A DNA stretch of 64,000 nt, from contig NZ_CP021422.1 of the NCBI RefSeq assembly GCF_002201475.1, forward strand, positions 1,612,001 through 1,676,000. The letters run 5' to 3'. Of this stretch, positions 28,204 to 45,870 are shown one piece after another. Below the pieces are notes generated by a model that had not been told where the DNA came from, ran no database searches, and saw only the letters and a list, made by a program, of their open reading frames with translations. Every line of letters starts with the position of its first letter. Positions within the stretch are counted from its first letter, which is position 1. Origin of the DNA: Acutalibacter muris. Its GTDB lineage: Bacteria > Bacillota > Clostridia > Oscillospirales > Acutalibacteraceae. The position numbers were made by a program, and so were the translations under genes.

Positions 28204-28212
28204 AGATACCAG

Positions 28213-28440
28213 CATGATAGAGGCGCGGAGGACATGAGTACGGCTGCTGTAAGCCCAGGGCATGGGGAGCGGCCTGAAAGGGGATTCCGCCGAGGCGGGG
28301 AGGCCTGTGCCCAGGCTCCTTTTGCCGGGCCCCGGGAGAAGATCCCGGGGACTGTCGCCCCATATTCCGGGGCGGAGCGCTGTCTATGATTTTTCATACC
28401 GCATATATGGAGTCATGGCAGAGTTATGTCATGACTTTTT
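28213..28440 (+). promoter_or_regulatory. Lysine riboswitch (L box) with terminator platform
   Basis: The conserved L-box landmarks appear in order: GATAGAGGCGCGGAGG near the 5' end (28216 on), GAGTA, CCTGAAAGGGGATTCCGCC (28273-28291), GCCGAGGC, GGGGACTGTCGCC and the closing GGAGCGCTGTCTATG (to 28388). The expression platform holds AGTCATG (28411-28417) pairing with CATGACT (28430-28436) followed by T5. Lysine binding would be expected to favour termination and switch off the NhaC-type gene. Confidence 0.9.
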
Positions 28441-28460
28441 GCATTGAGAGAGGGAAAAAC

Positions 28461-30071
28461 ATGAAGAGATCAAACCTTATCAAGGGCGTGCTGCTGGCGG
28501 TTATTCTGCTGGCGGTGTTCCTGGTCCCGCTGTTTATGGGCAGCGGCGAGTCCGCCGAGGAGGGCGGCGGCTTCTATGGCACAGGCTGGGCCCTGCTGCC
28601 GCCGGTGGTGGCCATAGCCCTGGCCCTTATCACCAAGGAGGTCTATTCCTCCCTGTTCGTGGGCATTTTGATGGGCGGGCTGCTCTATTCCGGCTATAAC
28701 TTCGAAGGCACCGTCCTCCACGTGTTCCAGGGGGGCATTGTCAGCGTGCTGTCCAGCGCCAGTAATATAGGCATACTGGTGTTCCTGGTTATCCTTGGGG
28801 CTATGGTGGCCCTGATGAACAAGGCGGGCGGCTCCGCGGCCTTCGGGCGCTGGGCGGCCAAGCACATCAAAAGCCGGGTGGGGGCTCAGCTGGCTACTGT
28901 GGCTTTGGGCGTACTCATTTTTATTGACGACTACTTTAACTGCCTCACCGTGGGCTCGGTTATGCGCCCGGTGACGGACAAGCATAAAGTGTCCCGGGTG
29001 AAGCTGGCATACCTTATCGACGCCACGGCGGCCCCGGTATGCATCATAGCGCCCATTTCCTCCTGGGCTGCGGCGGTGGCAAGCTACGTAGAGGAGGGCA
29101 ATGGGCTTAGTGTGTTTATTCAGGCAATACCCTTTAACTTCTATGCCATCTTAACCATAGTCATGATGGTGGGCATGGCTCTGATGAAGCTGGAATTCGG
29201 CTCTATGGCCAAGTTCGAGCATAACGCCGAGACTAAGGGTGATCTCTGGGGCGGCAAGAACCCCTATGCGGGAGCGGAGGAAGAGGAGGACGGAAAGGGA
29301 ATCGTGCTGGATCTGGTGCTGCCCGTGGCCGTGCTCATACTTTCCTGCGTCATCGGCATGATATACTCCGGCGGTTTCTTTGAGGGCGCCTCCTTTATCG
29401 AGGCCTTCTCCAATTCCGACGCGTCCCTGGGGCTTATGCTGGGCTCTGCCTTTGCCCTGGCGTTCACCCTCCTGTACTACTGCCTGAGAAAAACTATGAC
29501 CTTCCGGGAGACCATGGGCTGTATTCCCGAGGGCTTCAGGGCCATGGTTCCTGCCATACTTATCCTGACCTTCGCCTGGTCTCTGAATACCATGACCGGC
29601 TCCCTTGGGGCAAAGGAGTTTGTGGCCGGCATAGTTAAGAGCTCTGCCGGGGGTTTCCAGTCCCTCCTGCCGGCGGTGGTGTTCCTTATCGGCTGTTTCC
29701 TGGCCTTTGCAACGGGCACAAGCTGGGGTACCTTCGGCATACTTATCCCCATCACACTGAGCGTCTTCCCGCTGACGAATCCTCTTGGTGTGGTATGCGT
29801 GTCCGCCTGTATGGCCGGGGCCGTCTGCGGCGACCACTGCTCGCCTATCTCAGACACCACCATCATGGCCTCTGCTGGGGCCCAGTGCGACCACGTGGAC
29901 CATGTTTCCACCCAGCTGCCCTATACCGTGGTGGCGGCGGCCGTCAGCTTTGTGGCATATATCGTCGCTGGCTTTGTCCCAAATGCGCTGATAGCTCTGC
30001 CCATAGCTATAGTTCTGATGGTGGCGGCGATCTTTGGCATAAAGCTTGTGGGAGCGAAGAAAGCGGTGTAA
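28461..30071 (+). CDS. NhaC-family transporter, probable lysine transporter (LysW type)
   Basis: A 536-residue NhaC-family (Na+/H+ antiporter superfamily) membrane protein with about twelve hydrophobic segments. Family motifs include 'FIDDYFNCLTVGSVMRPVTD', 'IDATAAPVCIIAPISSWAA', 'ATGTSWGTFGILIPI' and 'GDHCSPISDTTIMASAGAQC'. By sequence alone it would be a sodium/proton antiporter, but the lysine riboswitch directly upstream predicts lysine import, as proposed for riboswitch-controlled NhaC homologues. ATG 28461 follows GAGAGAGGG; in-frame upstream Met codons lie in the riboswitch platform and are rejected. Confidence 0.88.
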   Translation: MKRSNLIKGVLLAVILLAVFLVPLFMGSGESAEEGGGFYGTGWALLPPVVAIALALITKEVYSSLFVGILMGGLLYSGYNFEGTVLHVFQGGIVSVLSSASNIGILVFLVILGAMVALMNKAGGSAAFGRWAAKHIKSRVGAQLATVALGVLIFIDDYFNCLTVGSVMRPVTDKHKVSRVKLAYLIDATAAPVCIIAPISSWAAAVASYVEEGNGLSVFIQAIPFNFYAILTIVMMVGMALMKLEFGSMAKFEHNAETKGDLWGGKNPYAGAEEEEDGKGIVLDLVLPVAVLILSCVIGMIYSGGFFEGASFIEAFSNSDASLGLMLGSAFALAFTLLYYCLRKTMTFRETMGCIPEGFRAMVPAILILTFAWSLNTMTGSLGAKEFVAGIVKSSAGGFQSLLPAVVFLIGCFLAFATGTSWGTFGILIPITLSVFPLTNPLGVVCVSACMAGAVCGDHCSPISDTTIMASAGAQCDHVDHVSTQLPYTVVAAAVSFVAYIVAGFVPNALIALPIAIVLMVAAIFGIKLVGAKKAV

Positions 30072-33585: not shown

Positions 33586-34611
33586 ATGGATAAGATTAAG
33601 GTTGTACAGTATGGCTGCGGTAAGATGGCAAAATATGCCCTGCGGTATCTCTATGAAAAAGGCGCGCAGATCGTGGGGGCTATCGATGTAGACCCCAATA
33701 TAGTGGGTATGGATGTGGGCGATTACGTTGGTCTGGGCGTTAAGACCGGCGTTGTTATCTCCGGCGACGCGGACAAGGTGCTGGACGAGTGCGACGCCGA
33801 CGTGGCTATTGTTACGCTTTTCAGTTTCATCAGTGATATTTATGACCATGTGGAAAAATGTGTGCGCCGGGGTATTAACGTAATCACTACCTGTGAAGAG
33901 GCCATTTACCCATGGACTACCTCCGCTGCGCAGATAAACCGGCTGGACGCTCTGGCAAAGGAGACCGGCTGCACCATCACAGGTTCTGGTATGCAGGACA
34001 TCTTCTGGATAAACATGGTGGCTATGGCCGCCGCGGGCTGCCATAAGCTCGAAAAAATTAGAGGGGCTTACAGCTATAATGTAGACGAGTACGGCATGGC
34101 TCTGGCAAAGGCACACGGCTGCGGACTCTCCCTACAGGAGTTTGAGAAGGAGATAGCCCCTCCTGCCGGATTCGAGCCCTCATATGCCTGGAACGCCGCC
34201 GAGGCCATATGCAATAAGCTGGGGCTTACCATAAAGTCCATTGATCAGAAGCACGTGCCATGCGTAATCGATAAAGATATCTATTCAGATACGTTGGACA
34301 GGACCATTGAAGCGGGAAAATGTATCGGCATGTCCGCCGTGGTGACTATCGAGACTATGCAGGGTATCACGGTGGAGGAGGAGACTATTGGCAAGGTCTA
34401 TGGCCCCGGCGACGGAGACCAGTGCGACTGGTGGTTCACCGGCGAACCCGACGCCGAGTACCATGTGGTAAAGCCGGCTACGGTGGAGCACACCTGCGCC
34501 ACGGTGGTAAACCGCCTGCCCTCGCTGCTCCGTGCTCCTGCGGGCTTCGTGAGCGCCGACCAGTTGGAGCCCGTAACCTATTTGACCTATCCTATGGAGT
34601 ATTATCTGTAA
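33586..34611 (+). CDS. DapB-like/2,4-diaminopentanoate dehydrogenase-family NAD(P) oxidoreductase
   Basis: A 341-residue dehydrogenase with a Rossmann N-terminus ('[14 protein letters not shown]', 6-19) and a C-terminal domain typical of the dihydrodipicolinate-reductase-like family that includes 2,4-diaminopentanoate dehydrogenase of clostridial ornithine degradation ('[13 protein letters not shown]', '[16 protein letters not shown]'). The rest of the ornithine pathway is not in the window, so the substrate may be another amino or imino compound. GAGAGGG precedes the ATG. It is a single-gene unit ended by a strong hairpin. Confidence 0.75.
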
Positions 34612-34687: not shown

Positions 34688-35308
34688 CTATACCAGCTGG
34701 TACTGGCCCTTTCCAAGCTTTTCAAGCACACCCTGCTCACAGAGCTTGCGCACCACTCTTTGCAGCTGGCTGCGGCTGCAATGAAGCTGCAGGATTCCAA
34801 CCTTCATCCCATGCAGTGTGTGGTCCGGCTGAAGATCCCGGAGAAATGCCACCAGCTTTTCCTCCACCGGCTGGGCGGGGTTGCCCATCTGGAAGAACAT
34901 ATGAAATTTATCTGCCACGCTGTGAAGAAGGAAGTTTAGGAACCTGACGTCCTTCTCCAGCGACTCCCTGTGCCGTGTTGTTGAAAGGGACACACAGAGC
35001 ACCTCCTCCAGCGCCTCAGTGTAAAAGGGAAGGGGCTCTTTTCTGATAAACTCAACGTCGCCCAGAAGTACGGAATGTCCGGCCAGGTATACGGAAAAGC
35101 TGCTGCCGTCCTCTCGCAGTCCATAGATGCTGACCCTGCCGCGCGCCAGGAACAGAAGCTGATCCATAGGCTTGAAGGGGGCCACTAGCAGCTCGCCCTT
35201 ATGGTATTCGACCAGATGGAACTGCAGCCCCAAAGAATCAAAATGGCCGGAAATACCCATTTTCTCTAATGTGGTTTTTAATAATTCCCGGTCGGATATA
35301 TACTCCAT
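34688..35308 (-). CDS. Crp/Fnr-family transcriptional regulator
   Basis: A 206-residue Crp/Fnr regulator. An effector-binding beta barrel (~15-130; 'LLFLARGRVSIYGLREDGSS', 'GHSVLLGDVEF') is joined by a dimerisation helix to a C-terminal winged helix-turn-helix ('LQLHCSRSQLQRVVRKLCEQ'). The cAMP-contact motif RxS is not evident, and no FNR-type cysteines are clustered, so the ligand is unknown. ATG 35308 has AAGGTG seven bases upstream; a GTG nine bases earlier overlaps that site. It is divergent from the C-glycoside cluster, with a near-perfect palindrome between them. Confidence 0.88.
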   Translation of the reverse strand: MEYISDRELLKTTLEKMGISGHFDSLGLQFHLVEYHKGELLVAPFKPMDQLLFLARGRVSIYGLREDGSSFSVYLAGHSVLLGDVEFIRKEPLPFYTEALEEVLCVSLSTTRHRESLEKDVRFLNFLLHSVADKFHMFFQMGNPAQPVEEKLVAFLRDLQPDHTLHGMKVGILQLHCSRSQLQRVVRKLCEQGVLEKLGKGQYQLV

Positions 35309-35330
35309 TTTTATCACCTTTTTTGATTTA

Positions 35331-35348
35331 TTGTAGCATATGATACAA
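35331..35348 (+). promoter_or_regulatory. Candidate Crp-like operator between regulator and C-glycoside cluster
   Basis: TTGTAGCATATGATACAA is an 18-bp palindrome with one mismatched pair. The -10-like TATTAT at 35369-35374 has no -35; with a start near 35381, the palindrome centre falls about -41.5, the class II activator position. Confidence 0.55.
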
Positions 35349-35428
35349 CCAAAAGCAAGGGGTTATGGTATTATTATATAAATCAGGTGGAGAGATCCAC
35401 AAATCGGAAAAACATAGGAGGAACTATT

Positions 35429-36535
35429 ATGAGCAAACTGAAGATCGGGGTCGTGGGCTGCGGTGGTATTGCAAACCAGAAGCACTTCCCGGCCATGAAG
35501 GCAAACAGCGACCTGTGCGAGATCGTGGCCTTCTGCGACATTATCAAGGAGCGGGCCGAGAAGGGCGCTGCGGAATACGGAGCAGAGGGGGCAAGGATAT
35601 ATGAGGACTACCACGACCTGCTGGCCGACAGCGAGGTTGAAGTTGTTCACGTGCTTACCCCCAACGTGGCCCACTGCCCGATAACCGTGGCGGCTTTCGA
35701 GGCCGGTAAGCATGTCTACTGCGAGAAGCCCATGGCCCACAATACAGACGACGCCAAGGCCATGCTGGAGGCATGGAAGAAGTCCGGCAAGCAGTTTACC
35801 ATCGGCTATCAAAACCGTTTCCGGCCCGAGGTACAGAACCTGAAGAAGGCCTGCGAGGCCGGGGAACTGGGCGACATCTACTATGGCAAAGCCCATGCCG
35901 TGCGCCGGCGTGCTGTACCCACCTGGGGCGTGTTCCCGGATAAGTCCAAGCAGGGCGGCGGGCCGCTGATTGATATCGGCACCCATGCCCTGGACTTGAC
36001 CCTGTGGATGATGGATAACTATGAGCCGCAGAGCGTTTCCGGCAGTGTGTTTTACAAGCTGGGAAATCTGCCTCAGGCTACCGAGGGTAACCTCTTCGGC
36101 CCCTGGGACCCGGAGACCTACGAGGTGGAGGACAGCGCCATGGGCTTTATCAAGATGAAGGATGGTACTGCTATCGCTCTCGAGGCTGCATGGGCCATCA
36201 ATATGACCGAGTCCAGGGAGGCCAGCACCACTCTCTGTGGTACCAAGGCAGGCGCGGAGATCTACTCCGGCATGAGCTATCCCGACAACAAGCTGGTCTA
36301 TAACCGGGGCCGTCACGGCCAGCTGATGAACGAGGAGATTGCTGGCGGCGGTTCTATAGCCTACTTTGAGGGCGGCGCTTCCGCTCCGGGGGTGGTGGAT
36401 AACCGTCAGTGGCTGGAGGCCATTATTAACGGCACCGAGCCGGTGGTGAAGCCCGAGCAGGCCTTTGTGGTGACTCAGATACTTGAGGCAATCTATCAGT
36501 CCGCAGAGTCCGGGAAGGAAATTATCCTTGGCTAA
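35429..36535 (+). CDS. Gfo/Idh/MocA oxidoreductase, DgpA-like (C-glycoside 3-oxidation)
   Basis: A 368-residue Gfo/Idh/MocA NAD-dependent oxidoreductase. The Rossmann motif is '[14 protein letters not shown]' (7-20), the catalytic 'EKP' is at 99-101 (Lys100), and '[14 protein letters not shown]' (177-190) supplies Asp182 and His186. In gut C-glycoside degradation, DgpA-type enzymes oxidise C3 of the glucosyl group so that the C-C bond can be broken. The two genes downstream encode the expected cleavage subunits, which supports this role. ATG 35429 follows TAGGAGG by seven bases; an earlier in-frame start overlaps the promoter. Confidence 0.82.
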
Positions 36536-36546
36536 GGGGGAGAACC

Positions 36547-37419
36547 ATGTATCAGTACGATAAAGAGGGGCCCAAGCGTGGCGTGGCGTTGTACAGCTAC
36601 TCTGCGGAGTTCGGTCTGACAAAGACCTTGGAGGACTGCTTTGAGGATATACACGATATGGGCGCCCACGGCATAGAAATTCTGGCCAACACACACATTG
36701 AAAACTATCCGTATCCCACTGAAGAATGGGTCGAGAAGTGGCGGCGGCTCTGTGACAAGTATGAGCTGGTGCCAGTGGAGTACGGCCACTGGATAGACAG
36801 CCATGTGCTGGGCGGCCGGGAGTTGACCACAGAGGAATCCGTTGAAATGCTGGAGCGCGACCTGCGCCTGGCTCATAGGCTGGGCTTTACGGTATTGCGC
36901 ACCAAGATGCCCGTCATCAACGACGCTTTGGAACCGGTGGAGAATTGGCGGGAGATAATAAAGGCCGCGCTGCCCCTAGCGGAGAAGCTGGGCCTGGTGA
37001 TGTGTCCGGAGATCCACACGCCGTCTAACCTAAAGGGCAAGATGGTCCAGGACTATGTGGAGTTTATCCAGAAGACCGGCACCAAGAATTTCGGGCTGAA
37101 TATCGACTTTTCCGTGTTCCGCAATCGCTTCGCCGATGGCGAGTGGCGCAGCCCGGATTTTCATCCCAACGAGCCGGAGGACATTGTGCCGCTGCTGCCC
37201 TACATAGCCTGCTGCCACGCCAAGTTCAACCACATGAGCGACGAGTTTGAGGAGACCACCCTCCCATATCCGAAAATCATCAAGCTGTTGCAGGACAATG
37301 AGTGGGACGGCTATCTCCTAAGCGAATACGAGGGCGCGGACAAGTACGACCCCGGCTATGAGGTGGGGCAGACTCTGCGCAAACAGCATATCATGCTGAA
37401 AAATCTCTTGGGCGACTGA
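36547..37419 (+). CDS. C-glycoside deglycosidase alpha subunit-like TIM-barrel protein (DgpC/DfgA type)
   Basis: A 290-residue xylose-isomerase-like TIM-barrel protein. Candidate metal ligands are Glu155 with His157 ('CPEIHTPS'), Asp187 ('LNIDFSVF'), His224 ('CCHAKFNHM') and Glu260 ('LLSEYEG'). On its own it would be called a sugar phosphate isomerase. With the small subunit following 13 bases downstream, it fits the alpha subunit of the C-glycoside deglycosidase, which eliminates the aglycone from a 3-oxo-C-glycoside. It starts 11 bases after the oxidoreductase behind AAGGGGGAG. Confidence 0.8.
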
Positions 37420-37432
37420 GGAGGGCAGATTT

Positions 37433-37873
37433 GTGGAGAGAGAAGTTATTCAGTCCGTTGGATTCCGAAATATAGTGGAAAACGGTGAAGTTATAGGCTT
37501 TCAGCTAAAGCTCCGTCTGCCCTATTATAGGGGCGTATTCCTCAGCCAGCTGCGCCCGGGCACACTGACGGTGGACGGGGAGAACTTTACAAAGGAGCAG
37601 ATCACCTGGTGCCTCCAGGGCGAGGAATACACCGCCGAAGAAATGGCGGAGGATTTCAAGACCCACTGGAACCCCACTGAAACAGCGGTGCTAAAGGTGA
37701 AGAAGCCCGGCGGGCTTACCCAGGGTTATCACGATCTGAAGTATGGGTTCTGCTTCACCTCCAGCTATATGCCTCCCGTCATGCAGGCCGCGCTGGACCC
37801 GGATAAAGAGAGCTTTGTGTTTATGCCTGAGTTTGGACATCATGTGAACGAGCGGAGACTGATTATAGTCTAA
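37433..37873 (+). CDS. C-glycoside deglycosidase beta subunit-like protein (DgpB/DfgB type)
   Basis: A 146-residue beta-rich protein matching the C-glycoside deglycosidase beta subunit family (formerly a DUF). 'GFQLKLRLPYYRGVFLSQL', 'VDGENFTKEQITW' and the C-terminal 'PEFGHHVNERRLIIV' are the recognisable parts. In characterised systems it forms a heteromer with the TIM-barrel subunit and is needed for C-C bond cleavage. GTG start at 37433 with GAGGAGGG upstream. This gene is what separates the cluster from ordinary inositol or sugar oxidation operons. Confidence 0.8.
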   Translation: MEREVIQSVGFRNIVENGEVIGFQLKLRLPYYRGVFLSQLRPGTLTVDGENFTKEQITWCLQGEEYTAEEMAEDFKTHWNPTETAVLKVKKPGGLTQGYHDLKYGFCFTSSYMPPVMQAALDPDKESFVFMPEFGHHVNERRLIIV

Positions 37874-38203: not shown

Positions 38204-38271
38204 TATTTTGTTCAAATCATAGAGATGGGTAGTGCCTTATCTCACACAGATTAGGAAAGGAGGTGAAATCG

Positions 38272-38823
38272 ATGAAAAAGCGGGTGAAAATCATCTTAGC
38301 GGCATATGCGGCGTTCAATGTGCTGCTGGTAGCTGTGGCAGGAGGGCTGTTTGCAGAGGCCAGCGAAAAGGCCAAGTGGGGTCCGCCGCTTCGGCTGGAG
38401 GTACCGCAGCATATAAACGTGGGGTATTTGCGGATGGATCCAAAGTTCTCGGAGGACGAATATTGGCTTCCTAAAGATTATGTGGAGTACGAATTCCTGG
38501 AACATGTCCCCGACGGGCGGCCCAAACAGAAAGAAGATGTGATAAGAGTCAAACGGACTGTTTCTGAAACAGCACCGGTTGACAGGTTGCGCGACCCGCA
38601 GCCGGAAGGGGTATATGAAGCCTTATATTGGTTCTGCGAAGAGGACGGATATTGGTACTTGGTCTGTGACCCCGATTTCGTGGTGCAAGCCAGCGCTTCC
38701 CCCCTAACACCCGGTGAAAGGATTATTGAGTATGGCGTCCCTTCCGCCATCGTGTCCCGGCCGGGCTTGTACAAGCTTGTCATGCTAAATGAATTGGGCT
38801 CTTTCGACTTTGAGGTGAAGTGA
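38272..38823 (+). CDS. Secreted or membrane-anchored hypothetical protein
   Basis: A 183-residue protein with an N-terminal hydrophobic helix (~5-27) after 'MKKRVK', ending 'GLFAEASEKA', a plausible signal cleavage region. The rest is soluble and rich in Pro and aromatic residues ('YWFCEEDGYWYLVCDPDF'), and ends in a beta-like 'PGLYKLVMLNELGSFDFEV'. No family was recognised. AAAGGAGGTG lies seven bases before ATG 38272; GTG 38263 in frame overlaps that site. Lower GC than the flanks. It sits ahead of a broken trypsin-like protease and may have been its partner. Confidence 0.65.
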   Translation: MKKRVKIILAAYAAFNVLLVAVAGGLFAEASEKAKWGPPLRLEVPQHINVGYLRMDPKFSEDEYWLPKDYVEYEFLEHVPDGRPKQKEDVIRVKRTVSETAPVDRLRDPQPEGVYEALYWFCEEDGYWYLVCDPDFVVQASASPLTPGERIIEYGVPSAIVSRPGLYKLVMLNELGSFDFEVK

Positions 38824-38858: not shown

Positions 38859-39535
38859 ATGAAAAAAGCACCTGCCTTCTTGGCGACCGTTTTAACGATA
38901 CTGACGTAGAAAAAGGGACTGGATTTCTGATAAATAATAGGTACCTATTCACTGCGACGCATATAGTTTACAAACCAGAATATGCACAGAACGGAAGAAA
39001 CGGATACGCGAAACATGTGGCAGTGTATCCAGGCGCTTCAAACGGAGATAGGCCGGTCTATAGAAAAGCCACACGCTATTGGATAGGTGGGGATTACAAA
39101 GACAATTGCTCTGTTGATAATGGCGATTATCTAAACTTAGGGATGTTTGACGATTGGGCTGTGATTGAACTGGAATCAAGTCTTTCACTTAACATAAGCT
39201 GCCTCAATGTGCGAGCAACCAACTCTTTTTCCGACATGAAAGGGAAAACCTATAAGAGCCAGGGATATCCAGAGGAATTGCAAACTGCCGCCGGATGGGG
39301 TAGTTGGACTATGTATAAGACTTCAGGGACCATCTATCAAGTTATGTCTGCTCCGCGCTTTTTACCCGTAGCGTGTTCGGAAAACATAAAAATCACCCCA
39401 GGGCAGAGCGGTTCACCATTATATCGAGACGGGGCCGCGGAAGCAATAGCTGTGGCCAACAGTCCAACTATCAGTTGTTTCATTCTCATCAACGACTGGC
39501 TATATAACGAAGTCCAAGAGAGGTGGTCCGTATAG
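38859..39535 (+). pseudogene. Trypsin-like serine protease, frameshifted near the signal peptide
   Basis: An ATG at 38859 (or 38847) behind AAAGAAAGG begins a signal-like 'MKKAPAFLATVLTILT' that runs into a TAG. The mature domain continues in another frame. 'GTGFLINNRYLFTATHIVY' holds the catalytic His, 'DDWAVIELE' the Asp and 'PGQSGSPLY' the Ser, so the S1-type triad is intact. It ends at 39535. The prodomain seems deleted, and no start with a ribosome site exists in the protease frame. Homologues are secreted V8-like endopeptidases. Probably a recent pseudogene; a sequencing error is the alternative. Confidence 0.65.
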
Positions 39536-39673
39536 ACTTTCGGAAGACCTGCTGATATAGATGCTGTCTGCACGGCTTTTTGGCACCTTTTTTGAGGACA
39601 GGCATATACTAAAATTAGGCCCGGCTTTATGTACGAGAGCTGGAGCCACACGAATTTTGGAGGTAATCCAAGC

Positions 39674-40906
39674 ATGAAAATGAAGATCTATTCGGGTTCC
39701 TCGTATCCTTACGGCAACGGCTGCTGTGAGCCGCTGCCCTGTCCGCCTGTCTGCTGCCCGCCGCCATGCCCGCCCTGTCCGGCCGGCGGCCCCACTGGCC
39801 CGACCGGGCCTACCGGCCCAACAGGTCCTACCGGGGCAACAGGCCCGACGGGGGCCGCCGGAGAGACTGGACAGATCGGGCCTACCGGGCCCACCGGAGC
39901 TAACGGCAATACCGGCCCGACGGGAGCCGTTGGCCCCACCGGGGCGAACGGTCTTGCAGGCCCTACTGGCCCTAGAGGTGACACAGGCCCGGCGGGCGCT
40001 CCCGGTGTAGATGGAGCTACAGGTCCCACCGGCCCCACTGGAACGGCGGGTGCGACAGGCGCTACCGGTGCCGCAGGAGCAGCCGGAGCTACAGGTCCCA
40101 CCGGCCCGACAGGCGCGGCGGGAGCCACCGGGGCGAATGGTGTAACCGGCCCCACAGGCCCCACCGGTGCCGCAGGAGCAGCCGGAGCTACAGGTCCTAC
40201 CGGCCCGACAGGTGCGGCGGGAGCTACCGGGGCGAATGGTGTAACCGGCCCCACAGGCCCCACCGGTGCAGCAGGAGCAGCCGGAGCTACAGGTCCCACC
40301 GGCCCGACAGGCGCGGCGGGAGCTACCGGGGCGAATGGTGTAACCGGTCCCACCGGGGCTACTGGAGCCACCGGGGAAAACGGAGCCACAGGCCCCACAG
40401 GCCCCACCGGTGCAGCAGGAGCAGCCGGAGCTACAGGTCCCACCGGCCCGACAGGAGCGGCAGGAGCCACCGGGGCGACAGGGCCCACAGGTCCCACTGG
40501 GGAAGCTGTTACAGCGGCGTCCATGAGCGCGTCAAATACCACCGGGCAGACCTTAACAGTGATCCTGGGCGGCACGCCTGTGCCGCTGCCAAACGCCCAG
40601 AGCCTTGACGGATTCACTGCTAACGGTGCAAACACGGTGTTCACTGTGCCGCAGACCGGGACTTACCTGATCACTTATCATGTGAACCCCACGGTGGCTG
40701 TAGCGATGACGTCTCAGGTGCTCCGAAACGGCACGGCTATTCCGGGCTCAGTACGTTCACCTGTAGCCACCGTAAGCTATGAAGCCACGGTTATCACTCC
40801 ACTGACAGCAGGCGATACTTTAACACTCCAGTTGTCAGGAGTTGCCGCGGCGGTAGTCTTGCAAGGCGGGTCAGGCGCTTCGCTGACAGCGGTTAGGTTG
40901 GCTTGA
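39674..40906 (+). CDS. Collagen-like (GPT-repeat) BclA-type surface protein
   Basis: A 410-residue protein with three parts. A Cys/Pro-rich head carries '[20 protein letters not shown]' (17-36). About 79 Gly-X-Y triplets, mostly GPT, GAT and GAA, run from ~39 to 276. A C-terminal ~134-residue domain, '[18 protein letters not shown]' to the end, resembles the BclA C-terminal jelly roll that trimerises. BclA proteins form hair-like filaments on exosporium surfaces, and the Thr residues are glycosylation sites. ATG 39674 follows GGAGG by ten bases. The Cys-rich head could anchor it to the spore crust. The next gene is a glycosyltransferase. Confidence 0.88.
40085..40381 (+). repeat. 99-bp tandem repeats within the collagen-like gene
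   Basis: A 99-base (33-codon) unit beginning GGAGCTACAGGTC recurs at 40085, 40184 and 40283 with few changes. A fourth, displaced copy begins near 40427 after 144 bases. Such repeats allow length change by recombination. Confidence 0.85.
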
Positions 40907-43463: not shown

Positions 43464-44462
43464 CTATTCTCCTTTATCACTTGGGAACAGAACGCCGCAC
43501 TCTCTACGCACCTGCTCCATGAACTCAGCCACCTCAATGCTCAGCCGGGTGCACAGGGCGTATTCCTCCCGGCTTTCATCGGGCTTGGTGATAAAGCGGT
43601 AAAAATCCCGGGCTTCGTGGCCCATGAGCAGGTGCTTCTCCTCACGCCCGAAAAGTGTCTCCACAGAGCCGTCCTTCATGCGCAGGGACATATTCCCGAG
43701 GGTGGAGATGGACTCCACGGCCACCGTGCCGTCCACCCCCTGGAGGTCGGACCCGGCTCCCGCCTGGCCTACCTTGGAGTAGGTGATGTTCACAAGCTTG
43801 TCCGGATACTCCATAATTATGGCCCCGGACTGGTCCGCGCCGGTCTCCATGAGCACGCTTCTTGCCGACCATTTTTCCGGCCTTTCGAAAAGGTACAGCG
43901 CCGGGTACACACAGTATACCCCCAGGTCCATCAACGCCCCGGTCTCCATTTTGGGGTTGAAGATATTGGGAAGGCTGCCGGAGAGGTAAGCGTCCAGCTT
44001 CGAGGACCGCTGGCAGAAGTCCAGCTTCACCATGTTTATCCGCCCTATCCGGCGGAGAGCCTCCTCTAGAATTTTCCGCTGCGGCAGGTGCAGGAACATG
44101 ATGGCCTCCATGAACACCACGCCCTTTTCGGCGGCAAGTTCTGCCAGCTCCCGCACTTTATCAGCCTGGGCGCAGAGAGGCTTTTCGCAGATAATATGCT
44201 TGCCCCGGGTCAGAATAGCCTTGCACTGTTCATAGTGAAGGGCGTTGGGGCTTGCCACGTACACCGCGTCCACTTGGGGACATCCGGCCAGGGCTTCAAT
44301 ATCAGTGAAAGTGTGCTCTGCGCCGTGCTTCCGCGCGAACTCCTCTGCCCGGGCCTTATCCCGGGAGTACACGGCGGAAAGCCGCCAAAGGCCTGTGGAT
44401 TTTGCGCCGCGTATATACTCCTCGCATATCCAGCCGGAGCCGACGGTACCAAAATTAAGCAT
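43464..44462 (-). CDS. Gfo/Idh/MocA family oxidoreductase
   Basis: A 332-residue NAD(P)-dependent oxidoreductase. The Rossmann start is 'LNFGTVGSGWICEEYIRG' and the catalytic 'EKP' is at 93-95. The later motif reads 'LMDLGVYCVYPALYLF', keeping the Asp but with Tyr where inositol-dehydrogenase-type members have His, as in the dimeric dihydrodiol dehydrogenase-like branch. The start at 44462 follows AAGGAGAA. It likely oxidises a sugar or cyclitol; the substrate is unknown. Confidence 0.85.
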   Translation of the reverse strand: MLNFGTVGSGWICEEYIRGAKSTGLWRLSAVYSRDKARAEEFARKHGAEHTFTDIEALAGCPQVDAVYVASPNALHYEQCKAILTRGKHIICEKPLCAQADKVRELAELAAEKGVVFMEAIMFLHLPQRKILEEALRRIGRINMVKLDFCQRSSKLDAYLSGSLPNIFNPKMETGALMDLGVYCVYPALYLFERPEKWSARSVLMETGADQSGAIIMEYPDKLVNITYSKVGQAGAGSDLQGVDGTVAVESISTLGNMSLRMKDGSVETLFGREEKHLLMGHEARDFYRFITKPDESREEYALCTRLSIEVAEFMEQVRRECGVLFPSDKGE

Positions 44463-44518: not shown

Positions 44519-45004
44519 ATGGACATAAAAGAGCTGAATGAATTTTATTACAAGCTTCAAATGAGGTGCAATGTCCTAATGCTGGGCCTACAGCACAGGA
44601 TATTGGAAACCGAAGGGGGAGGGTACAATGGACACTATTATAAAGACAGTGAAGGCATGTACGAGCGCGCGGAATACCCAATACCAGTAATCACCGTCAA
44701 GGGCTTATGCGATATAGAGGTAAACCTTGACTCGGTCAGTGTGACGGCAAAACGAAATAGGCTTAATACGCTGGACTATTCCTTCAGCAGGTTTTCCGGG
44801 GTTCCCTTCGAGGTGTTCAGCATAGAGCAGTACCTGGACGAGGATTACTATGCCCCGGGTATGAGCATGGAAACCTTCAGGGAGAATATGAGAAAATCCC
44901 AGGAGAAGGAACTGGGATTTTCCTTTCAGTTTGATAGGGAGGTGGGCAGGGACAAAATGTACGAGTTTGTCAGGCTGCTAAGAGAGGAGGGCTTCTACTA
45001 TTAG
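44519..45004 (+). CDS. Hypothetical protein
   Basis: A 161-residue cytosolic protein without a recognised family. It is rich in charged and aromatic residues, has no membrane helix, and ends 'FVRLLREEGFYY'. AAAGG lies about twelve bases before ATG 44519; a TTG at 44477 in the same frame is possible but weak. A TATAAT at 44483-44488 is too close to that TTG, which favours 44519. Its last four bases overlap the convergent isomerase gene. Confidence 0.55.
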   Translation: MDIKELNEFYYKLQMRCNVLMLGLQHRILETEGGGYNGHYYKDSEGMYERAEYPIPVITVKGLCDIEVNLDSVSVTAKRNRLNTLDYSFSRFSGVPFEVFSIEQYLDEDYYAPGMSMETFRENMRKSQEKELGFSFQFDREVGRDKMYEFVRLLREEGFYY

Positions 45005-45870
45005 GCCTCGTCCCAATACTTCTTCAGGTTTGCAAGGCCAATGCGTATGGCCGTCAGCGCCGGCTCCATGCCCTCAAACTCGATGGCGATGGTGTCGTCG
45101 TACCCTGCCCGCTTGAGTATGCTCAGGCACTGCTTCACCGGCACGTTGCCGTGGCCTATGACTGTGCCCCGCAGATAGTTGCCCGCCCGGGTCTGGAACG
45201 CGCCCTCGCCGGGGTCGTTGTCATAATAGCTCTTGATGATGAAGTCTTTTGCGTGGACATAGCGGGTGTAGGGGGCCACCCTGGCTACAGCCGTGGCCGG
45301 GTTCTCGTCGGCACAGGTGAAGTTGCCGATGTCGCATAGCAGGCCGAAGTTCGGGTGGTTCACGGTGTTATACAGCAGCTCCACCCGCTCTGAGTCCTGA
45401 GAGAAGAACCCGTGGTTCTCTGTCATGGTGACTATGCCCTTCCCGGCGGCATACTCGGCTATCTCACGCACGGCCTCGGCCAGCTCCGGCACCAGGGCGG
45501 CGTAGCTCTTGGGGGAGTCCTTCTGGCCCATGGTGATGTCGTGGCGCATACGGGGCGCACCCAGTACCTCCGCTATATCCACCATGCGCTTCACCCGCTC
45601 TATCTCGGCTTTCCTGTCGCCGTCTGAGCCGTTCAAAAGGTCCGCGCCCACGGCGAAGGAGGAGATGGGCATACCCTGTCTGTCCGCCTCCTCTCGGAGC
45701 TTTCTTGCTACCTCGGGCATTTCCTCCGGGGAGGAGGCACCCATCACGAAATCCACCGCCTCAATAGCGTCGAAGCCGAACTCTTTGGCCTTTGCCACGC
45801 ACTCTATGGGGGTTATCTCCCCGCTGCGGATGGCGCTGAAGAAGCTGTAAAGACTTACTGAGAATTTCAT
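45001..45870 (-). CDS. Sugar phosphate isomerase/epimerase-like TIM-barrel protein
   Basis: A 289-residue xylose-isomerase-like TIM-barrel protein. Likely metal ligands are in 'MTENHGFF', 'LLCDIGNF', 'YVHAKDF', 'IGHGNVPVKQ' and 'IAIEFEGME'. These are the Glu, Asp, His and Glu positions of the superfamily. It is distinct from the other two members in this window. It lies near a Gfo/Idh/MocA gene but is separated from it by a gene on the other strand. The reaction cannot be fixed from sequence. Confidence 0.8.
   Translation of the reverse strand: MKFSVSLYSFFSAIRSGEITPIECVAKAKEFGFDAIEAVDFVMGASSPEEMPEVARKLREEADRQGMPISSFAVGADLLNGSDGDRKAEIERVKRMVDIAEVLGAPRMRHDITMGQKDSPKSYAALVPELAEAVREIAEYAAGKGIVTMTENHGFFSQDSERVELLYNTVNHPNFGLLCDIGNFTCADENPATAVARVAPYTRYVHAKDFIIKSYYDNDPGEGAFQTRAGNYLRGTVIGHGNVPVKQCLSILKRAGYDDTIAIEFEGMEPALTAIRIGLANLKKYWDEA

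Follow-up and report, generated by a model that had tools for sequence, protein, structure and literature searches.

A three-gene operon of Acutalibacter muris KB18, read together with a divergent regulator gene and the proposed operator between them, very probably encodes a system that removes C-linked glucose from plant flavonoids, most likely 6-C-glucosyl flavones, apparently under a regulator with a single target. The operon lies at 35429-37873 of a stretch of 64,000 nucleotides, here called the window, which comprises positions 1,612,001 to 1,676,000 of contig NZ_CP021422.1. The chemistry is already known; in its combination of genes and in its regulator the system appears to be a new variant. 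The three enzyme genes are on the plus strand and encode a Gfo/Idh/MocA oxidoreductase (35429-36535, 368 residues from an ATG), a xylose-isomerase-like barrel identified as a deglycosidase alpha subunit (36547-37419, 290 residues) and a small beta subunit of the CGDB family (37433-37873, 146 residues, GTG start). The intergenic gaps are 11 bases between oxidase and alpha and 13 bases between alpha and beta, and the coordinates agree with the arrangement given in a preliminary description of this DNA. The mechanically called open reading frame of the oxidase begins upstream of the ATG at 35429, at a GTG, and a purine-rich stretch was seen by eye ahead of all three enzyme starts. The regulator is encoded on the minus strand at 34688-35317 (209 residues from a GTG; the database copy, P0121, has 206), followed by the proposed operator, a strandless 18-bp palindrome TTGTAGCATATGATACAA at 35331-35348, and a putative -10 hexamer TATTAT at 35369-35374 on the plus strand, the first base of which is 29 nt past the operator centre. 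The regulator and operator (34688-35348) are counted with the operon, although they fall outside the region originally described. The genome, a single contig of 3,802,813 bases, has one alpha and one beta gene; the G+C content of the operon (56.6%) shows no contrast with that of the window (55.9%).

The product of the first gene matched the Pfam family GFO_IDH_MocA (8.4e-29) and was identical at 268/361 positions (74%) to DgpA (7xr9) of the puerarin degrader PUE and at 214/362 positions to DgpA1 of W974-1 (9m3d). The Lys/Asp/His triad announced in the preliminary description is present as Lys100 in an EKP motif and Asp182 and His186 in a DIGTH motif, both motifs being shared with DgpA. By these matches, the protein is a DgpA-type glucoside 3-oxidoreductase. 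D3dgpA of Dorea sp. MRG-IFC3, the protein sequence of which is identical to that of DgpA, oxidises both puerarin and isoorientin, yet its host cells do not metabolise isoorientin (PMC11239390, excerpt); the pairing of a Dgp-type oxidase with a Dfg-type lyase is therefore chemically coherent. The partners of DgpA are DgpB and DgpC, a lid-bearing lyase of the C8 type, whereas the oxidase of the window sits with a lyase of the C6 type in the order oxidase-alpha-beta. Assignment to the DfgE type was rejected. The comparator was a Pseudobutyrivibrio locus (L012) rather than DfgE of Eubacterium cellulosolvens itself, and of the two Gfo/Idh/MocA proteins of L012 one was only 27% identical to the window oxidase over 288 residues and the other, at the DfgE position, only 31% over 210 residues. 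The window also contains, on the minus strand, a second Gfo/Idh/MocA-like gene (43464-44462, 26% identical to the operon oxidase) and a second xylose-isomerase-like barrel (45001-45870), in a genome with no second CGDB gene.

The lyase genes (36547-37873) encode the barrel and small subunit expected from the preliminary description. The alpha subunit matched Pfam AP_endonuc_2 (4.8e-20) and aligned without gaps to DfgA (7bvs chain A) with 237/290 identical residues (82%) and 579 bits; the next solved relative scored 226 bits, DgpC, the alpha subunit of the puerarin-type enzyme PuCGD, 142 bits and 7dnm 75 bits. The beta subunit matched PF19906 (CGDB, 'C-glycoside deglycosidase beta subunit', DUF6379) with 133.8 bits and 2.8e-39 against a cut-off of 27.6, and aligned over its full length to residues 1-147 of DfgB (7bvs chain B) with a single one-residue gap, 110/146 identical residues (75%) and 253 bits, compared with 72 bits for DgpB. 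Of 1097 candidates, 888 proteins matched the beta subunit at E<=1e-20. The small protein thus resembles both DfgB and the CGDB family; the finding named beforehand as telling against C-glycoside deglycosylation, a small protein with no such similarity, was absent, and the class of system stands. The earlier label, DgpA/DgpC/DgpB-like, is borne out for the oxidase and has to be given up for the lyase, the sequence of which places it with DfgA-DfgB of E. cellulosolvens (EuCGD; PDB 7bvs, 7dre, 7exb) rather than with DgpC-DgpB. The earlier remark that gene order and a linked regulator may define a variant holds, chiefly because the operon is a mixed set, Dgp-like in its oxidase and Dfg-like in its lyase.

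The catalytic residues were mapped by motif and spacing to those listed for AgCGD2, with an alignment to DgpC as support. In AgCGD2 the metal ligands are Glu147, Asp179, His269, Lys271 and Glu305, and His149 acts as base, partnered by Glu307 (PMC8563793, excerpt). All seven are kept in the window alpha subunit, as E155, D187, H224, K226 and E260 for the metal and H157 and E262 for the base and partner, and the spacings within the pairs E155/H157, H224/K226 and E260/E262 are the same. The numbering differs from that of AgCGD2 by +8 before the lid and by -45 after it, the step from D187 to H224 being 37 residues compared with 90 in AgCGD2 (D179-H269); the alpha subunit is thus 53 residues shorter over the stretch that forms the lid in AgCGD2. 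The four-helix lid domain that defines PuCGD is absent, and the longer M121-N133 loop of alpha and the extended beta7-beta8 loop of beta are those of the EuCGD subtype. The protein pair has the marks of a C-glycoside deglycosidase (CGD) in general, a PF19906 beta gene adjoining the gene of an AP_endonuc_2 barrel that has ligands of two Glu, one Asp, one His and one Lys with a base His and partner Glu, and it shares with EuCGD the absence of a lid, the loops, the metal and acid-base residues and near-identical subunit lengths. Assignment to the puerarin type was rejected on the missing lid and the far lower scores. EuCGD, which lacks the lid, was active on C6- and not on C8-glycosylated compounds among those tested, and the DfgA-DfgB complex was solved as an alpha4beta4 assembly (PMC8563793, excerpt). 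Since the alpha subunit is identical to DfgA at 237 of 290 positions, alpha and beta are inferred to form a heteromeric complex with an interface like that of DfgA-DfgB, and since the lyase is of the EuCGD type, 6-C-glucosyl flavones rather than puerarin are the predicted substrates.

On the model of DgpA, the 35429 product with bound nicotinamide adenine dinucleotide (NAD) would oxidise C3'' of the C-linked glucose, and the resulting NADH would be re-oxidised by 3-oxo-glucose. The 36547 and 37433 products, by analogy with EuCGD, would then act as an alpha/beta lyase with the active site at the subunit interface, where a divalent metal would be held by the five ligands and H157, helped by E262, would serve as base. 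The ring would be dearomatised, the C2'' hydrogen taken and the sugar expelled as 1,5-anhydro-D-erythro-hex-1-en-3-ulose, leaving the aglycone. The preferred substrates would be 6-C-glucosyl flavones such as isoorientin (homoorientin) and isovitexin. In a third step, proposed here, the divergent CRP/FNR-family protein would bind 35331-35348, which would be its only strong site in the genome, and activate the operon in class II fashion on a signal linked to the substrate.

Related systems differ in their gene content. The published cluster of the EuCGD host is dfgABCDE, whereas the window has one DgpA-type oxidase before alpha-beta and no further dfg-type genes (C, D, E) downstream, the next called gene (38263-38823; neighbouring genes were called by a codon-usage caller) having no Pfam match. 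In L012, the alpha subunit of which is the tree neighbour of EuCGD alpha, the genes after alpha-beta encode a second barrel, two Gfo/Idh/MocA proteins and a major facilitator superfamily (MFS) transporter, none of which follows the lyase genes of the window; this order fits the published dfgABCDE, the identity of the second Gfo protein as DfgE being a reading from position. PuCGD (DgpB-DgpC of PUE; 7bvr) has the same superfamily pair and chemistry as the window lyase and is distant from it in sequence. The PUE cluster has accessory genes (PMC8398226, excerpt), and several Catenibacillus species carry dgpA apart from dgpBC (PMC11170127, excerpt). CarB-CarC and AgCGD1/2 of soil actinobacteria share with the window lyase the alpha/beta principle and the conserved metal ligands but are remote in sequence (7dnm being the 75-bit match given above); these lyases are heterodimers (PMC8563793, excerpt) and the oxidases are of the GMC family (CarA), not the Gfo family (PMC11239390, excerpt).

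The divergent gene product matched Pfam cNMP_binding (1.6e-9) and the NCBIfam model YeiL at 5.5e-13 with 49 bits, below the model cut-off of 180. Residues 35-203 aligned to the Crp-family protein 1o5l and residues 25-203 to Vfr with weak scores, the best being 22 bits for any solved relative. No separate helix-turn-helix Pfam match was found in the protein; the C-terminal helix-turn-helix is taken from these two alignments. The cNMP_binding domain and the CRP-type C-terminal alignment are common to YeiL and Vfr; the candidate operator, with a CATATG core and TTGTA arms, is unlike those of these comparison systems. Together with the proposed palindromic site, the domain and alignments place the protein in the CRP/FNR family as the probable dedicated activator of the operon. 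A phrase search ('transcriptional regulator') across five open-licence papers on C-glycoside deglycosylation found no such regulator. The regulator gene is adjoined and faced by a gene (33586-34611) for a protein resembling 2,4-diaminopentanoate dehydrogenase (144 bits, cut-off 400), for which nothing scored above 60 bits among the other system loci compared.

The distribution of the regulator was followed in a set of 61 related alpha loci totalling 807,653 bases (loci are numbered L, genomes G). A regulator gene of the close type lies divergently next to the system in six loci besides that of the window, five with the oxidase (L003, L004, L005, L006, L011) and one without (L102, of G024, where the regulator directly precedes alpha), at identities of 59-65%; the L011 gene matches in two pieces of 47% and 61%. 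These two pieces, at 1112-1730 of L011, are in different frames, indicating a broken gene or an assembly error. At 2780-2975 of L102, between regulator and alpha, a short remnant like the oxidase N-terminus was seen by eye, and the oxidase seems to have been lost. Database proteins of Acutalibacter caecimuris are 86% (beta, P0005) and 66% (regulator, P0152) identical to their window counterparts, and the two probably lie together, the longest contig being the same for both (258,895 bases). Of the 55 testable loci, 13 have a CRP-like gene in the 2.5 kb ahead of alpha, six of the close type and seven of a distant type (28-29% identity) from metagenome-assembled genomes titled Ruminococcaceae, Oscillospiraceae, Clostridiales or Clostridia, several of which are near-copies of one another. 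In three distant-type loci (L032, L045, L058) a different palindrome, around AAGTGACACGTGTCAC, recurs ahead of the Dfg-type lyase genes; L036 has a palindrome of its own, and the remaining three have weak palindromes only.

The window operator is symmetric at 16 of 18 positions, reading TTGTAGCATATGATACAA and, on the opposite strand, TTGTATCA. Each of the seven regulator-lyase loci has a palindrome in which one arm or both read TTGTATCA and the core is CATATG or CACATG; when the seven intergenic regions were aligned, 15 of the 18 operator columns were identical compared with 13 of 93 elsewhere. The sole perfect match in the genome is 35331-35348. A second strong site was considered and rejected, as two other places, each with two mismatches, were found and the reversed control gave the same number. 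Scans for a similar pattern gave one place each in G004, G024 and G120 and one more, weak, in G017, with none in the controls; the genomes of G024 and G017 are not complete. In six of the seven loci the top-scoring -10 lies, without a tie, with its first base 29 nt from the middle of the palindrome; in the window offsets of 29 and 32 score equally, a tie broken toward 29.5, and the transcript would begin near 35381 or, with the rival -10, three bases later. A spacing of 29 nt is expected for a CRP-type protein centred at -41.5, and the geometry suggests a class II CRP-type activator.

Seven paralogous loci in which the regulator is 40-50% identical were compared (G001, G011, L089, L096, L098, L099, L100, of which L096 and L098 are nearly identical). 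The paralogues face lone oxidases (G001, G011), a MatE gene identified by Pfam (L089) or MATE-like genes recognized by eye (the other four), and their palindromes are TTGTGCCA in six and TTATGCCA in L089, with the best -10 offset at 29 in two, 30 in four and 32 in one. One of these paralogues belongs to A. muris itself (G000:C1:440224-440841; L089 9207-9839): it is 48-49% identical to the regulator, has a TTATGCCATATGTCACAA site and faces a MatE-family gene. The recognition helix reads CSR-S/A-QLQR in all seven system-linked regulators and CSR-R-QLQR in all seven paralogues, so that Ser/Ala183 regulators pair with TTGTATCA-type sites and Arg183 paralogues with TTGTGCCA-type sites. Residue 183 aligns with the Glu following Ser-Arg in Vfr, and we take it to be equivalent to CRP Glu181, which reads the base pair differing between the two site types. 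Residue 183 and operator type appear to co-vary, a correlation across related proteins.

A beta gene follows alpha within 200 bases on the same strand in all 54 loci with at least 460 bases of downstream sequence, the other seven loci running out of sequence; the pairing is not due to chance. PF19906 was found in 10 of 118 genomes, eight of which are the own genome or of the same genus (the genus set comprises 29 genomes including the own), and the C-deglycosylation trait is patchy across genomes. G006 has three CGDB genes (L063, L073, L074), one in a close Dfg-type pair and two in remote sets ordered oxidase-beta-alpha. In a tree of 26 oxidases, six of them labelled as beside a Dfg-type lyase, six as beside a Dgp-type lyase and 14 unlabelled and uncounted, the Dfg-associated oxidases fall in two places kept apart by well-supported branches, the tree carrying a warning of long branches near the root. 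L003, L006, G004 and G017 occupy one place; the window and L011/G120 occupy the other together with the oxidases of G009, located away from its lyase, and of G016, located inside a remote CGD cluster. In the alpha tree, which is only partly resolved, L011 groups instead with L003, L006, G004 and G017 (support 91; the inner fork is unresolved). With moderate confidence, exchange of the oxidase or repeated assembly of the operon fits this conflict between the oxidase and lyase trees. The alpha subunit is more similar than RecA in comparisons with Pseudobutyrivibrio (82% vs 65%), C. scindens (75% vs 62%) and G100 of another family (84% vs 69%), and is 77-86% identical to those of G004, G009 and G024 of the same genus, for which RecA is 76-80% (G006, G017 and G077 were left out of the RecA comparison). 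These identities fit either horizontal transfer or strong constraint.

Several observations weigh against the assignment of the operon to regulated removal of C6-linked glucose. A DgpA-type oxidase (at least 60% identity) ends within 200 bases before alpha in only five of 56 loci (L003, L004, L005, L006, L011). Two further oxidase relatives in the genome at E<=1e-60, of 59% and 54% identity, or a protein encoded elsewhere in the genome that is 39% identical to the L012 protein at the DfgE position, could also serve. The operon contains no transporter gene, and no relative of the L012 MFS protein was found in the genome at E<=1e-20, an empty search result that proves little; of little weight also is the lack of a phloretin-hydrolase-family match in the genome, as the controls had none either. 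The substrate preference is transferred from a single homologue at 82% identity. The regulator is a putative activator, the -10 of the window is ambiguous by three bases, and conservation of the operator is partly due to common descent.

The possible function of the oxidase outside C-deglycosylation bears on the same question. The DgpA-type enzyme also oxidises many O-glucosides, the 3''-oxo products of which mostly fall apart to aglycones (PMC11239390, excerpt), and in G001 and G011, both lacking a match to PF19906, a DgpA-like oxidase stands alone with a related divergent regulator; the oxidase may therefore have another job. That it mainly starts oxidative removal of O-linked glucose, with the lyase an accessory for occasional C-glucosides, is nevertheless improbable in the window, where 11 bases separate the oxidase gene from those of the lyase and the operator is of the lyase-locus class, unlike those of the two oxidase-only loci. 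A Pfam scan of ten proteins at oxidase-only loci of G001, G011, G009, G026 and G006 revealed no common partner gene: the oxidase is followed by DUF3784, GNAT and PHP in G001, by RecA and an AP_endonuc_2 barrel in G011, by a carboxylesterase in G009 and by a radical SAM protein and one matchless protein in G026, which has an enolase-like gene on the other side, and a ThuA-like gene lies beside it in G006. The lyases of G006 and G009 are encoded at other places in those genomes.

With the same enzymes, a system mainly for C8-glucosides of the puerarin type would accord with the oxidase being closest to DgpA of a puerarin degrader, but it is the lyase that sets specificity. Both lyase subunits score far lower against DgpC and DgpB than against EuCGD, the PuCGD lid is absent and EuCGD did not turn over those C8 compounds on which it was tried (PMC8563793, excerpt), which makes this reading very unlikely. 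There is a somewhat better, though still small, chance that the main substrate is another C6-type C-glucoside, whether of a xanthone (mangiferin, for example) or of an aromatic compound outside the flavonoids: EuCGD accepted compounds 3-5 of a C6 group (PMC8563793, excerpt) in a panel that included mangiferin, by our own reading among those accepted. The segments that have been assigned to the pocket loops of EuCGD are, however, nearly unchanged in the window lyase and therefore give no sign of a shifted pocket. We consider it similarly unlikely that the divergent gene has nothing to do with the operon beside it, or that its product is a repressor or acts genome-wide. In favour are the 49 of 55 testable alpha loci without a close-type regulator within 2.5 kb upstream, and activation is itself a proposal. 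Against this stand its recurrence in the other six, the concentration of CRP-like matches, of which only 17 were found in all 61 loci and 14 fall to genes upstream of alpha, the lack of any other perfect operator match in the genome and the operator columns, which are conserved much more strongly than the remainder of the intergenic region. Regulated cleavage of 6-C-glucosyl flavones remains the preferred reading. A bolder form of it is offered tentatively, as possible and short of an even chance: that in Acutalibacter a one-target CRP/FNR-family sensor answers a C-glucoside or a 3-oxo-sugar intermediate, with Ser/Ala183 reading TTGTATCA and the Arg183 paralogues at efflux-like or oxidase-only genes TTGTGCCA, and that the joining of a broad DgpA-type oxidase to a Dfg-type lyase specific for C6 has happened two times or more.

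Elsewhere in the window, a lysine riboswitch (28210-28390, 95.2 bits) directly precedes a gene for a membrane protein that is antiporter-like by eye (28386-30071), and 39629-40906 encodes what is, by eye, a collagen-like protein with long Gly-Pro-Thr repeats, preceded by an open frame that is likewise by eye protease-like (39017-39535).

The C-glucosyl flavones resist ordinary glycosidases and, to our knowledge, only some gut bacteria cleave them. No paper joining Acutalibacter with C-glycosides was found in the open-licence literature. A. muris KB18 (CP021422; DSM 26090) is a member of the Oligo-MM12 mouse community (PMC5646386). If the proposed function is correct, a cultured strain of this 12-strain gnotobiotic mouse community would be a C-deglycosylator, and the fate of isoorientin and isovitexin would therefore be testable by leaving one strain out. 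The operon would separate the choice of oxidase, broad and DgpA-like, from the choice of a C6-specific lyase, and it would provide a candidate regulator and operator for C-deglycosylation chemistry that may be useful as a C-glycoside sensor.

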